A stretch of DNA of 64,000 nt, taken from contig CADAGX010000004.1 of NCBI GenBank assembly GCA_902787575.1, positions 83,684-147,683 on the forward strand. The letters are read 5' to 3'. Each line of letters opens with the position of its first letter. The stretch's first letter is position 1. Made by a program: the position numbers and the translations under genes. The notes beneath the pieces are model-generated. The model saw only the letters and a program-made list of their open reading frames with translations. It did not search any database and was not told where the DNA came from. Origin of the DNA: an uncultured Bacteroidales bacterium (GTDB lineage Bacteria; Bacteroidota; Bacteroidia; Bacteroidales; Bacteroidaceae). Positions 57,262-62,585 of this stretch are shown here, one piece after another.

Positions 57262-58179
57262 ATGATTCGAATGAGAAAGATATTGATTCTGCTGGCTGTG
57301 CTCCTCATGGCAGGGGCAACGGCCGAGGCGCGCCGCAAGGCCAGCCACGTAGTAATAATAGGTATGGACGGCTGGGGCTCCTACAGTATGCCGAAGGCCG
57401 ACATGCCACAAGTGAAGCAACTGATGGCCGACGGCAGCTTCACGCTGAAGAAACGCTCGGTGCTGCCCTCGTCGAGCGCCGTCAACTGGGCATCGATGTT
57501 CATGGGCGCAGGTCCCGAGGTGCACGGCTACACGACGTGGAACTCCAAGGTGCCCGAAGCGCCGTCGTGGACGGTGTGCGAGCACGGCATCTTCCCCACC
57601 GTCTTCCACCTGCTGCGCGAAGCTGAGCCGCAGGCCGAGATGGGCGTCATGTACGAGTGGTCGGGCATCAAGTATGTGGTGGACACGCTGGCCCTCAACT
57701 ACTACGCCGAGGCCGTGGGCTACGAAGAGAAGCCCACGCTGCTGGCCGAGATGTCCGAGCGGTATATCGAGGAGAAGAAGCCGCGCCTCGTGGCCATCTG
57801 CTTCAACAACCCCGACCACGTGGGACATGCAGCGGGCCACGACACGCCCGAGCTCTACGACAAACTCCACGAACTGGATGGCTACGTGAAGCGCATCGTG
57901 GAGGCCACCAAGCGGGCCGGCATCTACGACGAGACGGTCTTCGTGCTCACCTCAGACCACGGCGGCAAGGACAAGGGACACGGCGGCAAGACGCTGCTCG
58001 AAATGGAGTCGCCCTTCATCATCTGCGGCAAGGGCACACGCCGCGGCCACGAAATCATGGAGCCCATGATGCAGTACGACGTGGCAGCCACGGTGGCCTA
58101 CGTGCTGGGCCTCGAGCAGCCGCAGGTGTGGACCGGACGGCCCATGCTGAGCGCTTTCGGCAAGAAAGGCAAGAAATAA
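57262..58179 (+). CDS. exported alkaline-phosphatase-superfamily hydrolase, first copy
   Basis: A 305-residue protein with a signal peptide and the type I phosphodiesterase/nucleotide pyrophosphatase fold. Metal residues appear as VIIGMDGWG (Asp), NPDHVGHAAGHD (Asp, His, His) and TSDHGGKDKGHGG (Asp-His and His). The nucleophile is expected in LPSSSAVNWASMFMG. The family cleaves nucleotides, phosphodiesters or sulfate esters; the substrate is unknown. A tandem copy follows after 31 bases. Confidence 0.87.
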   Translation: MIRMRKILILLAVLLMAGATAEARRKASHVVIIGMDGWGSYSMPKADMPQVKQLMADGSFTLKKRSVLPSSSAVNWASMFMGAGPEVHGYTTWNSKVPEAPSWTVCEHGIFPTVFHLLREAEPQAEMGVMYEWSGIKYVVDTLALNYYAEAVGYEEKPTLLAEMSERYIEEKKPRLVAICFNNPDHVGHAAGHDTPELYDKLHELDGYVKRIVEATKRAGIYDETVFVLTSDHGGKDKGHGGKTLLEMESPFIICGKGTRRGHEIMEPMMQYDVAATVAYVLGLEQPQVWTGRPMLSAFGKKGKK

Positions 58180-58210
58180 GAAAGAGCAAACACTTTAAAA
58201 CGATACTGAC

Positions 58211-59125
58211 ATGAACATTCGCAAGATTTCACTTCTCATCCTCGCGCTGGTGGCAGCCACGCTAGGCATCGAAGCCCGCCGCGCGGCCAGCCATGTCGTA
58301 ATAATAGGTATGGACGGCTGGGGCGCCTACAGCGTGCCGAAGGCAGACATCCCGCAGATGAAACAGATGATGGCCGACGGCAGCTTCACGTTGCACAAGC
58401 GTTCGGTGCTGCCTTCGTCGAGCGCACTCAACTGGGCCACCATGTTCATGGGCGCCGGCACCGAAGTGCACGGCTACACGGAATGGAACTCCAAGGTGCC
58501 CGAGGCTCCGTCGTGGACGGTATGCGAGCACGGCATCTTCCCCACCGTCTTCCACCTGCTGCGCAAGGCCGAACCGCAGGCCGAGATTGGCGTGATGTAC
58601 GAATGGGACGGCATCAAGTACGTGGTGGACACGCTGGCACTGAGCTACTACGCACAGGCGCCCGATTACGAGAAGAACCCGACGCTGCTCACCGAAATGG
58701 CCGAGCAGTACATCACCGAGAAGAAGCCGCGCCTCGTGGCCATCTGCTTTGACAACCCGGACCACGTGGGACACAAGGTAGGACACGACACGCCTGAGTA
58801 CTACGACAAACTCAAGGAGCTGGACGGCTACGTGAAGCGTATCGTGGAGGCCACCAAGCGGGCCGGCATCTACGACGAGACAGTCTTCGTACTCACCTCC
58901 GACCACGGTGGCAAGGGCAAGGGACATGGCGGCAAGACGATGCTCGAGATGGAGACGCCCTTCATCATCTGCGGAAAAGGCATACGTCAGGGCCACGAAA
59001 TCATGGAGCCCATGATGCAGTACGACGTGGCAGCAACCGTGGCCCGCGTGCTGGGCCTCGAGCAGCCGCAGGTGTGGACCGGACGCCCCATGAAGAGCGT
59101 CTTCGGCAAGAAAGGCAAGCGCTGA
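58211..59125 (+). CDS. exported alkaline-phosphatase-superfamily hydrolase, second copy
   Basis: A 304-residue paralogue of the preceding protein with the same motifs (VIIGMDGWG, LPSSSALNWATMFMG, NPDHVGHKVGHD, TSDHGGKGKGHGG) and a different signal peptide. The cores are very similar, so the duplication is recent or maintained by conversion. Its position just before cysC suggests a role with nucleotide or sulfate compounds in the periplasm, but that is inference. Confidence 0.87.
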   Translation: MNIRKISLLILALVAATLGIEARRAASHVVIIGMDGWGAYSVPKADIPQMKQMMADGSFTLHKRSVLPSSSALNWATMFMGAGTEVHGYTEWNSKVPEAPSWTVCEHGIFPTVFHLLRKAEPQAEIGVMYEWDGIKYVVDTLALSYYAQAPDYEKNPTLLTEMAEQYITEKKPRLVAICFDNPDHVGHKVGHDTPEYYDKLKELDGYVKRIVEATKRAGIYDETVFVLTSDHGGKGKGHGGKTMLEMETPFIICGKGIRQGHEIMEPMMQYDVAATVARVLGLEQPQVWTGRPMKSVFGKKGKR

Positions 59126-59159: not shown

Positions 59160-59765
59160 ATGGCAGAGAACATCTATCCGATATACGACCGCATGATGAC
59201 GCGGCAGGACAAGGAAGCACTGCTTCGCCAGCACGGCATGCTGGTGTGGTTCACAGGCCTGAGCGGCAGCGGCAAGAGCACAGTGGCCATGGGCGTGGAG
59301 CGCGAGTTGCACAGCCGCGGCATCCTGTGCCGCATACTGGACGGCGACAATATACGCGCCGGAATCAACAACAACCTGGGTTTCTCGGCCGACGACCGGC
59401 GCGAGAACATACGGCGCATAGCCGAGGTGGGGCGCCTGTTTGTGCAGACGGGCATCGTCACGCTGGCATGCTTCGTCTCGCCCACCGAGGAACTGCGGCA
59501 GATGGCTGCCGAGATAGTGGGACGCGAGGACTTTCTGGAAGTCTATGTCAGCACACCGCTGGAGGAATGCGAGCGGCGCGACGTGAAAGGCCTCTACGCC
59601 CGAGCCCGCCGTGGCGAAGTGAAGGACTTCACGGGCGTGAGCGCGCCCTTCGAGGCACCCCGAGAGCCGGCGCTGAGCATTGATACGTCGCGACTGTCGC
59701 TCGAGGAGAGCGTGCGTGCCGTGGTGGAACTGATAACAAATCACAACAAAGAGATACTGAAATGA
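59160..59765 (+). CDS. cysC: adenylylsulfate kinase
   Basis: Phosphorylates APS to PAPS with ATP. 201 residues; Walker A is GLSGSGKST (33-41), and [20 protein letters not shown] binds APS. The later [21 protein letters not shown] holds the LYxxAR and FTG(I/V)xxP motifs. The ATG of cysD overlaps its TGA (ATGA). Confidence 0.95.
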
Positions 59766-60670
59766 AAGAATACAGTTTGAGCCACCTGCAGGAACTGGAG
59801 GCCGAGAGCATCCACATCATACGCGAGGTGGCGGCCGAGTTCGAGAATCCCGTCATGCTCTACAGCATCGGCAAGGACAGCAGCGTGATGGTGCGACTGG
59901 CCGAGAAAGCCTTTGCGCCAGGCAAGGTGCCCTTCCCGCTGATGCACATCGACTCGAAGTGGAAATTCCGCGAGATGATAGAGTTCCGCGACGCGTACGC
60001 CAAGCAGTACGGCTGGAACCTCATCGTGGAGTCTAACATGGAAGCCTTCCGCGCCGGCGTGGGACCCTTCACACACGGCTCGAAGGTGCACACCGACCTG
60101 ATGAAGACGAAGGCGCTGCTCGACGCGCTGAACAAATACAAGTTCGACGCAGCCTTCGGCGGTGCACGGCGCGACGAGGAGAAGAGCCGCGCCAAGGAGC
60201 GCATCTTCTCGTTCCGCGACCAGTTCAACCAGTGGGACCCCAAGAATCAGCGCCCCGAACTGTGGGACATCTACAACAGCCGCGTGCACAAAGGCGAGTC
60301 AATACGCGTCTTCCCGCTCTCGAACTGGACCGAGCTGGACGTCTGGCAGTACATCCGGCTGGAGAAGATACCCATCGTGCCGCTCTACTTCGCCAAGGAA
60401 CGCCCCTGCGTGGAGATTGACGGCAACATCATCATGGCCGACGACGACCGACTGCCAAAAGAACTCGTGCCGAAGATACGTCCGCGCATGGTACGCTTCC
60501 GCACACTGGGCTGCTGGCCGCTGACCGGCGCCGTGGAGAGCAACGCCACCACGATAGAAGAGATCGTGGAGGAGATGATGACCACCACCAAGAGCGAACG
60601 CACCACGCGCGTCATCGACTTCGACCAAGAGGCCTCCATGGAGCAGAAGAAGAGAGAGGGGTACTTCTAA
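59762..60670 (+). CDS. cysD: sulfate adenylyltransferase subunit 2
   Basis: The PP-loop ATPase subunit that makes APS from sulfate and ATP, driven by the GTPase CysN. 302 residues; [13 protein letters not shown] is the PP-loop, [20 protein letters not shown] the nucleotide site, and [12 protein letters not shown] and the C-terminal [10 protein letters not shown] are typical. A 0.49 kb unit separates it from cysN, which normally follows directly. Confidence 0.96.
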
Positions 60671-60705
60671 GCCTCTCCCCCAGCCCCTCCCCCAAAGGGA
60701 GGGGT
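60671..60705. repeat. left 35-bp inverted repeat flanking the DUF559 gene
   Basis: A C-rich repeat that starts at the first base after the cysD stop. It matches the complement of 61124-61158 at 30 of 35 positions. Inside, CCCCTCCC and GGGAGGGG form an 8-bp hairpin with a 5-base loop. Confidence 0.85.
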
Positions 60706-60720
60706 AAATAAGAAGTAAGG

Positions 60721-61104
60721 ATGGAAAAGGTGTTCTGGTATCAAACGGCGGCTCCCGACAGATATGCTCTGCTCAAGGAGTTTGCAAAAGAGAACCGGCG
60801 CCATCCGACCACGGCGGAGGCCATCTTATGGCGACATCTGACGCGCAATGAGACGGGGCAAAAATGGCGACGACAACACGTGATAGGCGACTACATCGCA
60901 GACTTTGTCTGTCTCTCTGAAATGTTGATAATCGAGGTGGACGGTGCATACCACACAGAGCCCCTGCAGAGGGAGGATGACGAGAGAAGGACACACCACC
61001 TACAACAAATGGGATTCCACGTGATACGCTTCACAAACGAAGAGATACTCTGCAATATAGAAGAAGTCATAGAAAAGATAAAAGCTAAAACAAATAACGT
61101 ATGA
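60721..61104 (+). CDS. DUF559 nuclease-like protein between cysD and cysN
   Basis: A 127-residue PD-(D/E)XK-type protein of the DUF559 family, related to very-short-patch endonucleases. The fold core is seen as [26 protein letters not shown] (Asp of the active site), [10 protein letters not shown] (Glu-x-Asp/His) and [13 protein letters not shown]. The DNA is more AT-rich than its neighbours and uses AGA and AAA codons freely, signs of foreign origin. It has a GTAAGG-type leader, its TGA overlaps the cysN ATG, and it is bracketed by inverted repeats. Target unknown. Confidence 0.88.
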
Positions 61105-62585
61105 AAGATAATATGCAAGGCTCACCCCTCCCTATTGGGGAGTGGCAAGGGGAGAGGCCGGCTGGGCTCGACATCAAAGCCTACTTGGACGCAGACGAGA
61201 AGAAGTCTCTTTTGCGACTGCTGACGGCAGGCTCGGTGGACGACGGAAAGAGTACGCTCATCGGCCGACTGCTCTTCGACAGCAAGAAACTCTACGAAGA
61301 CCAACTCACAGCACTGGAGCGTGACTCGCGGCGAGTGGGCAACGCAGGAGCAGGACAGATAGACTACGCGCTGCTGCTGGACGGACTGAAGGCTGAACGC
61401 GAGGAGGGCATCACCATCGACGTGGCGTACCGCTACTTCTCGACAAACCAGCGCAAGTTCATCATCGCCGACACGCCGGGACACGAGCAGTACACGCGCA
61501 ACATGATAACAGGTGGCTCGACGGCCAACCTGGCCATCATACTGGTGGACGCCCGCACGGGTGTCATCACGCAGACGCGACGCCATACGTTCCTCGTCTC
61601 GCTGCTCGGCATCAAGCACATCGTGCTGGCAGTGAACAAGATGGACCTGGTGGACTTCTCGGAAGAGGTGTTCAACAAGATTCGCGACGAATACCTCGCA
61701 CTCACCACACAGCTGGGCATCGAGGACGTCACCTGCTTCCCGCTCTCGGCACTCGAGGGCGACAACGTGGTGGAGAAGAGCCAGCGCACGCCGTGGTTCA
61801 AAGGCACCTCGCTGCTCGAGTTCCTCGAGACAGTGCCCATACACCGCGACCGCAACATGACCGACTTCCGCTACCCCGTGCAGTACGTCCTGCGTCCCAA
61901 CCTGGACTTCCGCGGCTTCTCGGGCAAGATAGCCAGCGGCGTCATCCGCAAGGGCGACGAAGTGGTGGCACTGCCCTCGATGAAGCGCAGCCACGTCAAG
62001 AGCATCGTCACCTACGAGGGCGAGCTCGACGAAGCCTTCTGCCCGCAGTGCGTCACGCTGACACTCGAGGACGAGATAGACATCAGCCGCGGCGAGATGA
62101 TAGTGCGGCCAGACAACCTGCCGAACATCGGACGCAACTTCGAGACCATGCTCGTGTGGATGGACGAGGAACCGATGGACCGCGGCAAGCAGTTCTTCCT
62201 AAAGCACAACACCAACACCACACGCGCCACCATCGACGCCATACCCTACCGCGTGGACGTGAACACGATGGAGCACCTCGAGGGACGCGACTTCCGGCTC
62301 AACGAGATAGGTTGCGTGCGCATCACCACAGCCAAGACGCTCTTCTTCGACGCCTACGCAAAGAACAAAGCCACCGGCGCCTTCATCCTCATCGACCCGA
62401 TTACCAACAACACCTCGGCCGTCGGCATGATTATCCGCCCGCTCGAGACTGAAGACATCAATCAGGCCGACATCCCCACCCTCGACCTGCCGCGCCTCGG
62501 CATTACGCCAGAGCACTACGAAGCCATCGAACAGGCAGTCAAAGAACTATCCCGACAGGGACTGGAAATCAAAGTAATAAAGTAA
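61101..62585 (+). CDS. cysN: sulfate adenylyltransferase subunit 1 (GTPase) with a repeat-encoded N-terminus
   Basis: GTPase partner of CysD. 494 residues; the G1 loop is GSVDDGKST (44-52), followed by DTPGHEQY and NKMDLVDF and the EF-Tu-like beta barrels. Residues 8-20 ([13 protein letters not shown]) are encoded by the right inverted repeat, and the usual family sequence begins only at about LDIKAYL (23). The start codon is the ATG that overlaps the DUF559 stop. No later Met lies before the G-domain, so the original start seems to have been replaced. Confidence 0.95.
61124..61158. repeat. right 35-bp inverted repeat, inside the cysN reading frame
   Basis: Complementary to 60671-60705 at 30 of 35 positions; the differences fall at repeat positions 11, 12, 16, 23 and 25. 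The 35 bases are translated as residues 8-20 of CysN. Confidence 0.85.

Follow-up and report, generated by a model that had tools for sequence, protein, structure and literature searches.

A DUF559 nuclease gene between inverted BoxC/TM-type repeats as a probable minimal mobile element in several bacterial phyla

In a 64,000-nucleotide stretch of DNA from an uncultured Bacteroidales bacterium (contig CADAGX010000004.1), here called the window, we noticed a DUF559 nuclease gene standing between two inverted repeats at the junction of cysD and cysN. We consider it quite probable that this arrangement, a single DUF559 nuclease gene with an inverted repeat of the BoxC/TM kind on each side and about 490 bp in all, is a minimal mobile element. 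With somewhat less assurance, we also favor a broader proposal: DUF559 genes and BoxC/TM repeats together would form a class of mobile elements, present in several phyla and with no known transposase, in which a bare nuclease of the Vsr/EDxHD type acts on a repeat able to form a triplex or hairpin. Such elements would insert in frame into essential genes and be the source of the Escherichia coli BoxC repeats and of those in many other genomes.

The nuclease gene (60721..61104, plus strand) encodes 127 amino acids and matches the Pfam profile of DUF559, PF04480, with an E value of 4e-33 and 113.9 bits, against a curated cutoff of 20.6. PF04480 and PF18741 are its only profile matches, and the Pfam profile search found no match in it to Y1_Tnp, the HUH Y1 transposase. 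The initial annotation, made from the sequence alone, had described a 127-codon PD-(D/E)XK-like gene more AT-rich than its neighbors, which agrees with the profile match and with a GC content of 48.7%, versus 59.6% for both neighbors. The left arm (60671..60705, minus strand; inverted-repeat comparison and folding) and the right arm (61124..61158, plus strand; inverted-repeat comparison) are 35-bp repeats complementary at 30 of 35 positions, as had been described. Their flank score of 22.5 was reached by none of 2932 random placements within the window, the best of which scored 15. Both neighbors, on the plus strand, were identified by open reading frame and profile match. The left arm starts 1 bp after the end of cysD (PAPS_reduct; 59762..60670) and leaves 15 bp to the start codon of the nuclease gene. 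The ATG of cysN (61101..62585) overlaps the DUF559 stop (ATGA), the first cysN codons fall between the nuclease gene and the right arm, and the right arm lies in the cysN reading frame, where it codes for 12 CysN residues. The cysN start differs in relatives. Coordinates and translation bear out the placement originally given, with the left repeat directly after the cysD stop and the right repeat read inside cysN.

A G/C-rich motif able to form an intrastrand triplex, named TM and formerly BoxC (also PIT), was described by Holder et al. in 2015 (PMC4666352). According to that paper, genetic-mobility activities were never found beside TM, and the repeats of E. coli K-12 are always intergenic, whereas here the repeats are the ends of a gene-bearing unit. 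The arms share with TM the order of pyrimidine stem, loop, purine stem, short spacer, and G-rich third strand. Read on the minus strand, the left arm has these parts in this order with its G-rich tail directed away from the gene; the tail of the right arm also points outward. The left arm folds as a hairpin with a z score of −2.0. The right arm forms an imperfect hairpin, and its folding was no better than that of shuffled sequences. A BoxC/TM finder that also detects an E. coli example detected both arms with their tails. On sequence, the arms are of the known BoxC/TM kind, with a hairpin whose 5' stem is of pyrimidines and a G-rich third strand after it, and they may form a triplex; this goes a step beyond the initial annotation.

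The suggestion that the unit had been inserted between cysD and cysN was borne out by the junctions of the genus. All 43 genus genomes with a strong cysN match were read; the end of cysD, recognized by its last codons before cysN, was present in 33 and not in the other 10, one of which has a lone repeat by eye (L261). The unit is absent from 31 of the 33 junctions. The remaining two are the host genome of the window and G046, where a decayed DUF559 unit with an arm sequence different from the window's lies at the same junction upstream of cysN (L178). A relative, L036, has its insertion in common with the window and a broken DUF559 frame; by comparison with it, the window unit may start at 60669. 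The unit is thus not at the same place in all relatives, in keeping with the very small mobile element that had been proposed.

Four DUF559 copies were found by a search of the host genome. Besides the one at cysD-cysN, one stands beside a gene that we take from its translation to be argC, sharing one open frame with it; one is upstream of a gene presumed on the same grounds to be leuC, its right arm sitting in the first leuC codons; and the fourth has its frame broken near the start. Each of the four is bracketed by inverted repeats, G/C-rich and 16 to 35 nt long, whose sequence varies by locus, and the hairpin pattern occurs at 39 places in this genome. In the genus, DUF559 was matched in 37 of 61 genomes. 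The 72 copies counted (excluding L047, at a contig edge, L036 to L040, and fragmentary matches) occupy about 53 sites, which is a slight overcount. Complementary flanks (score of 15 or more) were found in 66 of the 72, versus 16.7% of mismatched left-right pairs and none of 71 outward-shifted pairs, and a locus's own left-right pair ranked first in 34 of 72. The motif of pyrimidine stem, purine stem, and G tail was present on both sides of 64 copies and on at least one side of 70, versus 8 of 284 control windows, so DUF559 genes lacking such repeats are not the majority. The downstream gene is codirectional with DUF559 in 66 of 71 copies, and the open frame extends 400 bp or more past the domain in 15 of 72.

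When copies are aligned, the gene and its arms behave as one mobile unit. We aligned 12 pairs of copies with similar nucleases. One pair turned out to share its site; for the remaining 11, homology ends within about 10 bp past the arms. Four of these 11, such as L072/L080, align in one piece from arm end to arm end. Arm similarity tracks nuclease similarity (Mantel p = 0.001): the mean score is 12 below 50% identity, and the 8 pairs with at least 70% identity reach 29 or more. Nuclease and arms have a shared history. Synonymous sites are near saturation in the aligned pairs, and therefore the jumps are old. The median ratio of nonsynonymous to synonymous differences (pN/pS), calculated without the copies that have in-frame stops (L023 and L069), is 0.26, and judged from these alignments the nuclease is kept under selection.

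Insertion into genes without loss of frame, which the initial annotation had anticipated, was checked by Pfam in 15 chosen loci. DUF559 shares one open frame with leucyl-tRNA synthetase (LeuRS; at two positions), MetH, HsdR, HsdM, and GcpE, as well as with phosphoglycerate mutase, guanylate kinase, an epimerase, and a type ISP enzyme, a shared frame being no proof that the long protein is made. In one family, LeuRS was read in 50 of 60 genomes. Of these alleles, 40 are empty, 3 hold one arm, 2 hold two arms, 2 hold a whole unit, and 3 have other inserts, with the frame kept in every case; the empty, one-arm, two-arm, and full states occur at a single codon. One genus contains both empty and full alleles. 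No target-site duplication was obvious by eye at this site, where no close pair of empty and full alleles was available. At a second LeuRS position, after a GMIQG motif, L229 to L237 have other in-frame inserts by eye.

The number of repeats in a genome goes with the presence of the gene. The hairpin pattern occurs 2561 times in the 61 genus genomes, versus 138 occurrences of a reversed control pattern, with medians of 63 in 35 DUF559-bearing genomes and 4.5 in the 26 others (Spearman 0.57, p = 2e-6; 0.49 after correction for control pattern and genome size). DUF559-bearing here means a best E value of 5e-10 or lower; G035 and G060 are included by partial matches, and G011 and G057, with weak matches, are among the 26. 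Of 200 Pseudomonadota genomes, 45 had a strong match (E value of 1e-20 or lower), and 31 of these were repeat-rich, versus 10 of the 155 others (p = 4e-17), of which 23 have weaker matches, including the repeat-rich G156. The control pattern did not differ significantly between these Pseudomonadota groups (p = 0.08). The repeat is therefore not mostly alone and unrelated to DUF559, the outcome that had been named as adverse to the proposal; repeat-rich genomes mostly bear the gene. Genomes with DUF559 have more repeats, which suggests that the gene produces repeats besides making use of them.

Beyond the genus, DUF559 was matched in 68 of the 200 Pseudomonadota genomes and in 78 of 148 genomes of the window's phylum. 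We examined the strongest copy per genome in up to 29 further genomes of each group, giving 29 Pseudomonadota and 27 wider-phylum copies. L135 and L145 were excluded from the motif-finder test, as was L038 in a small extra group, and L142 is the same place as L037. The motif was on at least one side in 26 of 29 and 23 of 27 copies, respectively (controls, 4 of 116 and 4 of 104), and on both sides in 14 and 19. The pattern of the genus recurs in both groups. Matching flanks were also found at a Stygiobacter locus and three alphaproteobacterial loci. Nine of 30 matches from a plasmid collection were examined, without control windows, and the finder was positive in 8, including Synechocystis (both sides) and Deinococcus (one side). 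In Picosynechococcus pAQ6 (L191, 2293-3070), where the finder was negative, the DUF559 gene lies amid two families of C-rich palindromic direct repeats of 60 to 64 bp. In Neisseria gonorrhoeae (L188, 2319-3300), it is found amid an 87-bp repeat that is present in three direct copies and contains a BoxC-like hairpin.

The DUF559 gene of E. coli is ycjD, a PF04480 member with an E value of 1e-49. In K-12, a TM lies 168 bp past the ycjD stop, and a degenerate TM overlaps the stop. The motif near ycjD has the letters of entries 9, 16, and 19 of Table 1 as given in PMC4666352. We matched ycjD in 3365 of 5426 E. coli genomes and found no match in 2061; most of the sapF-ycjD-fabI stretch is present in 3362. 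The map position of entry 9, 29', presumably fits fabI. In strains such as UTI89, a resistance-nodulation-division efflux locus adjoins fabI in place of ycjD (see also PMC12817139). The E. coli strain in the 14-genome control of our DUF559 family search gave no match, despite the clear PF04480 membership of K-12 ycjD. A 39-bp piece of the ycjD 3' end recurs (90%) downstream of the K-12 gene, in the interval from the degenerate BoxC motif to the better one (L195, 2836-2980), as if a second unit had collapsed there.

A 59-row DUF559 alignment has E33, D61, E72, D74, H78, and D87 among its invariant residues. The structure model of the window nuclease (predicted local distance difference test score, 87) has a fold like those of Vsr and EDxHD homing endonucleases, with the DUF559 structure 3hrl, I-Bth0305I, and Vsr as nearest folds. 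YcjD is already treated as a Vsr-like PD-(D/E)XK nuclease in PMC1189080. The best reading of the whole is a selfish element, similar to repetitive extragenic palindromes (REPs), that is spread by its own nuclease. The nuclease would recognize the folded repeat, as hairpin or intrastrand triplex, and nick or cut at its outer end, which by eye is often GG[G/T]CT, or at a repeat already in the target; host repair would then copy in one arm or the entire unit. Repeats standing alone, E. coli BoxC among them, would be nonautonomous offspring of the unit, as REPs are of REPtrons. With only 15 bp between left arm and start codon, the gene probably depends on a host transcript, which would explain why copies mostly share the direction of the gene that follows and at times form part of a host protein by read-through. 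The interpretation given in the initial annotation is supported overall; catalysis by the DUF559 nuclease, and its cutting or moving of the repeat, are what we infer.

The LeuRS allelic series is compatible both with transposition and with homing, in which the nuclease would cut solo BoxC/TM repeats in place and recombination between arms would copy the gene in, the repeats themselves having spread otherwise or long ago. The EDxHD fold, the empty, one-arm, two-arm, and full alleles at one LeuRS codon, the best match between same-locus arms at nearly half of the genus loci, as expected from gene conversion, and the two arm types that have struck cysD-cysN all suit homing. Repeat numbers, however, increase with DUF559 presence, and transposition to new sites is therefore favored; we regard homing as possible and the less likely of the two. 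Another enzyme, such as a Y1 transposase of the IS200 or REP-associated tyrosine transposase (RAYT) type, might instead move the repeats, with DUF559 as a passenger between two of them. REPs are thought to be moved by such transposases (PMC8266576), and Y1_Tnp matches, many of them weak, occur in 23 of the 61 genus genomes. We found no link, however, between hairpin counts and Y1_Tnp in the genus genomes (Spearman 0.16, p = 0.23; 0.05, p = 0.72 with strong matches only), the same gene family would have to be the passenger across phyla, and selection maintains the nuclease; we hold this explanation to be improbable. A resident Vsr-like host repair enzyme acting on triplex-forming repeats beside which it is kept, with nothing mobile, would suit the relation to Vsr (by fold and in PMC1189080) and the single place of ycjD in most E. 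coli genomes having it, but is already disfavored by the diversity of sites among the genus copies, and with insertions inside LeuRS, MetH, HsdM, and other host genes and empty sites at cysD-cysN and LeuRS, we think it very improbable.

Several observations weigh against a self-spreading element. Neither a target-site duplication nor a recent jump was seen in the loci compared. The test for complementary flanks (score of 15 or more) was passed by no more than 17 of 29 copies in Pseudomonadota and 14 of 24 in the wider phylum, with L135, L138, L140, L145, and L151 excluded for short flanks, and mismatched pairs passed this test at rates of 20% and 6%. The motif was missing from both sides in 2 of 72 genus, 3 of 29 Pseudomonadota, and 4 of 27 wider-phylum copies; those also scored for flank complementarity mostly have other matching repeats, and L114 has none. 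It is on both sides in only one of the nine plasmid-collection loci, and on one side only of E. coli ycjD. Tail direction differs between groups: the G-rich tails are outward in the genus for 44 of 64, but in Pseudomonadota they are inward for 7 of 14 and outward for none. A strong DUF559 match is lacking in ten of the 41 Pseudomonadota genomes rich in repeats; five genus genomes have more than 25 hairpins without DUF559, and four that bear it have fewer than 10. Examples are G018, with 170 hairpins and no DUF559, and G031, with three matches and 3 hairpins. These genome-level statistics also ignore phylogeny. G018, G205, G226, and G264 have 95 to 177 BoxC-type hairpins and no strong DUF559 match; another mover, gene loss, and incomplete assemblies are candidate explanations.

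Elsewhere in the window, two tandem and very similar genes of about 305 amino acids each (57262-59125) are apparently a duplication. Among the open-access literature matches listed, none links DUF559 with BoxC/TM repeats. The unit appears to be the mobile source that has long been missing for the widespread BoxC triplex repeats. BoxC thereby gains a concrete and testable candidate mover, present in K-12 as ycjD, and the large DUF559 family gains a candidate function. If the proposal is true, a selfish element survives within essential protein genes by keeping their frame.

The Vsr mismatch endonuclease is a repair enzyme encoded beside dcm; to our knowledge, its gene has neither repeat arms nor a mobile unit around it, though we made no search for either. 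I-Bth0305I, an EDxHD homing endonuclease, has a catalytic domain that is related according to the structure model, but it has additional DNA-binding parts and a very long target (PMC3943268), whereas DUF559 consists of the catalytic domain alone, with palindromes on either side of its gene. Closer likenesses are found in two kinds of palindromic element. In REPtrons, as portrayed in PMC8266576 and PMC3733652, a gene lies beside or between palindromes that also occur alone, and enzyme and palindrome evolve together; likewise, the DUF559 gene is enclosed by inverted palindromes of a kind present elsewhere in the genome. The enzymes of REPtrons, however, are RAYTs, which are HUH (Y1) transposases, and the window protein is a PD-(D/E)XK, Vsr-like nuclease. 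Rickettsia palindromic elements (RPEs) are, like the DUF559 unit, palindromic DNA found in frame inside unrelated protein genes, but they are about 150 bp long and are described without a nuclease gene of their own (PMC10969869), so that gene content sets the nuclease-bearing unit apart. The DUF559 unit is REPtron-like, with RPE-like in-frame landing, and by its enzyme and its gene content it is a member of neither group.
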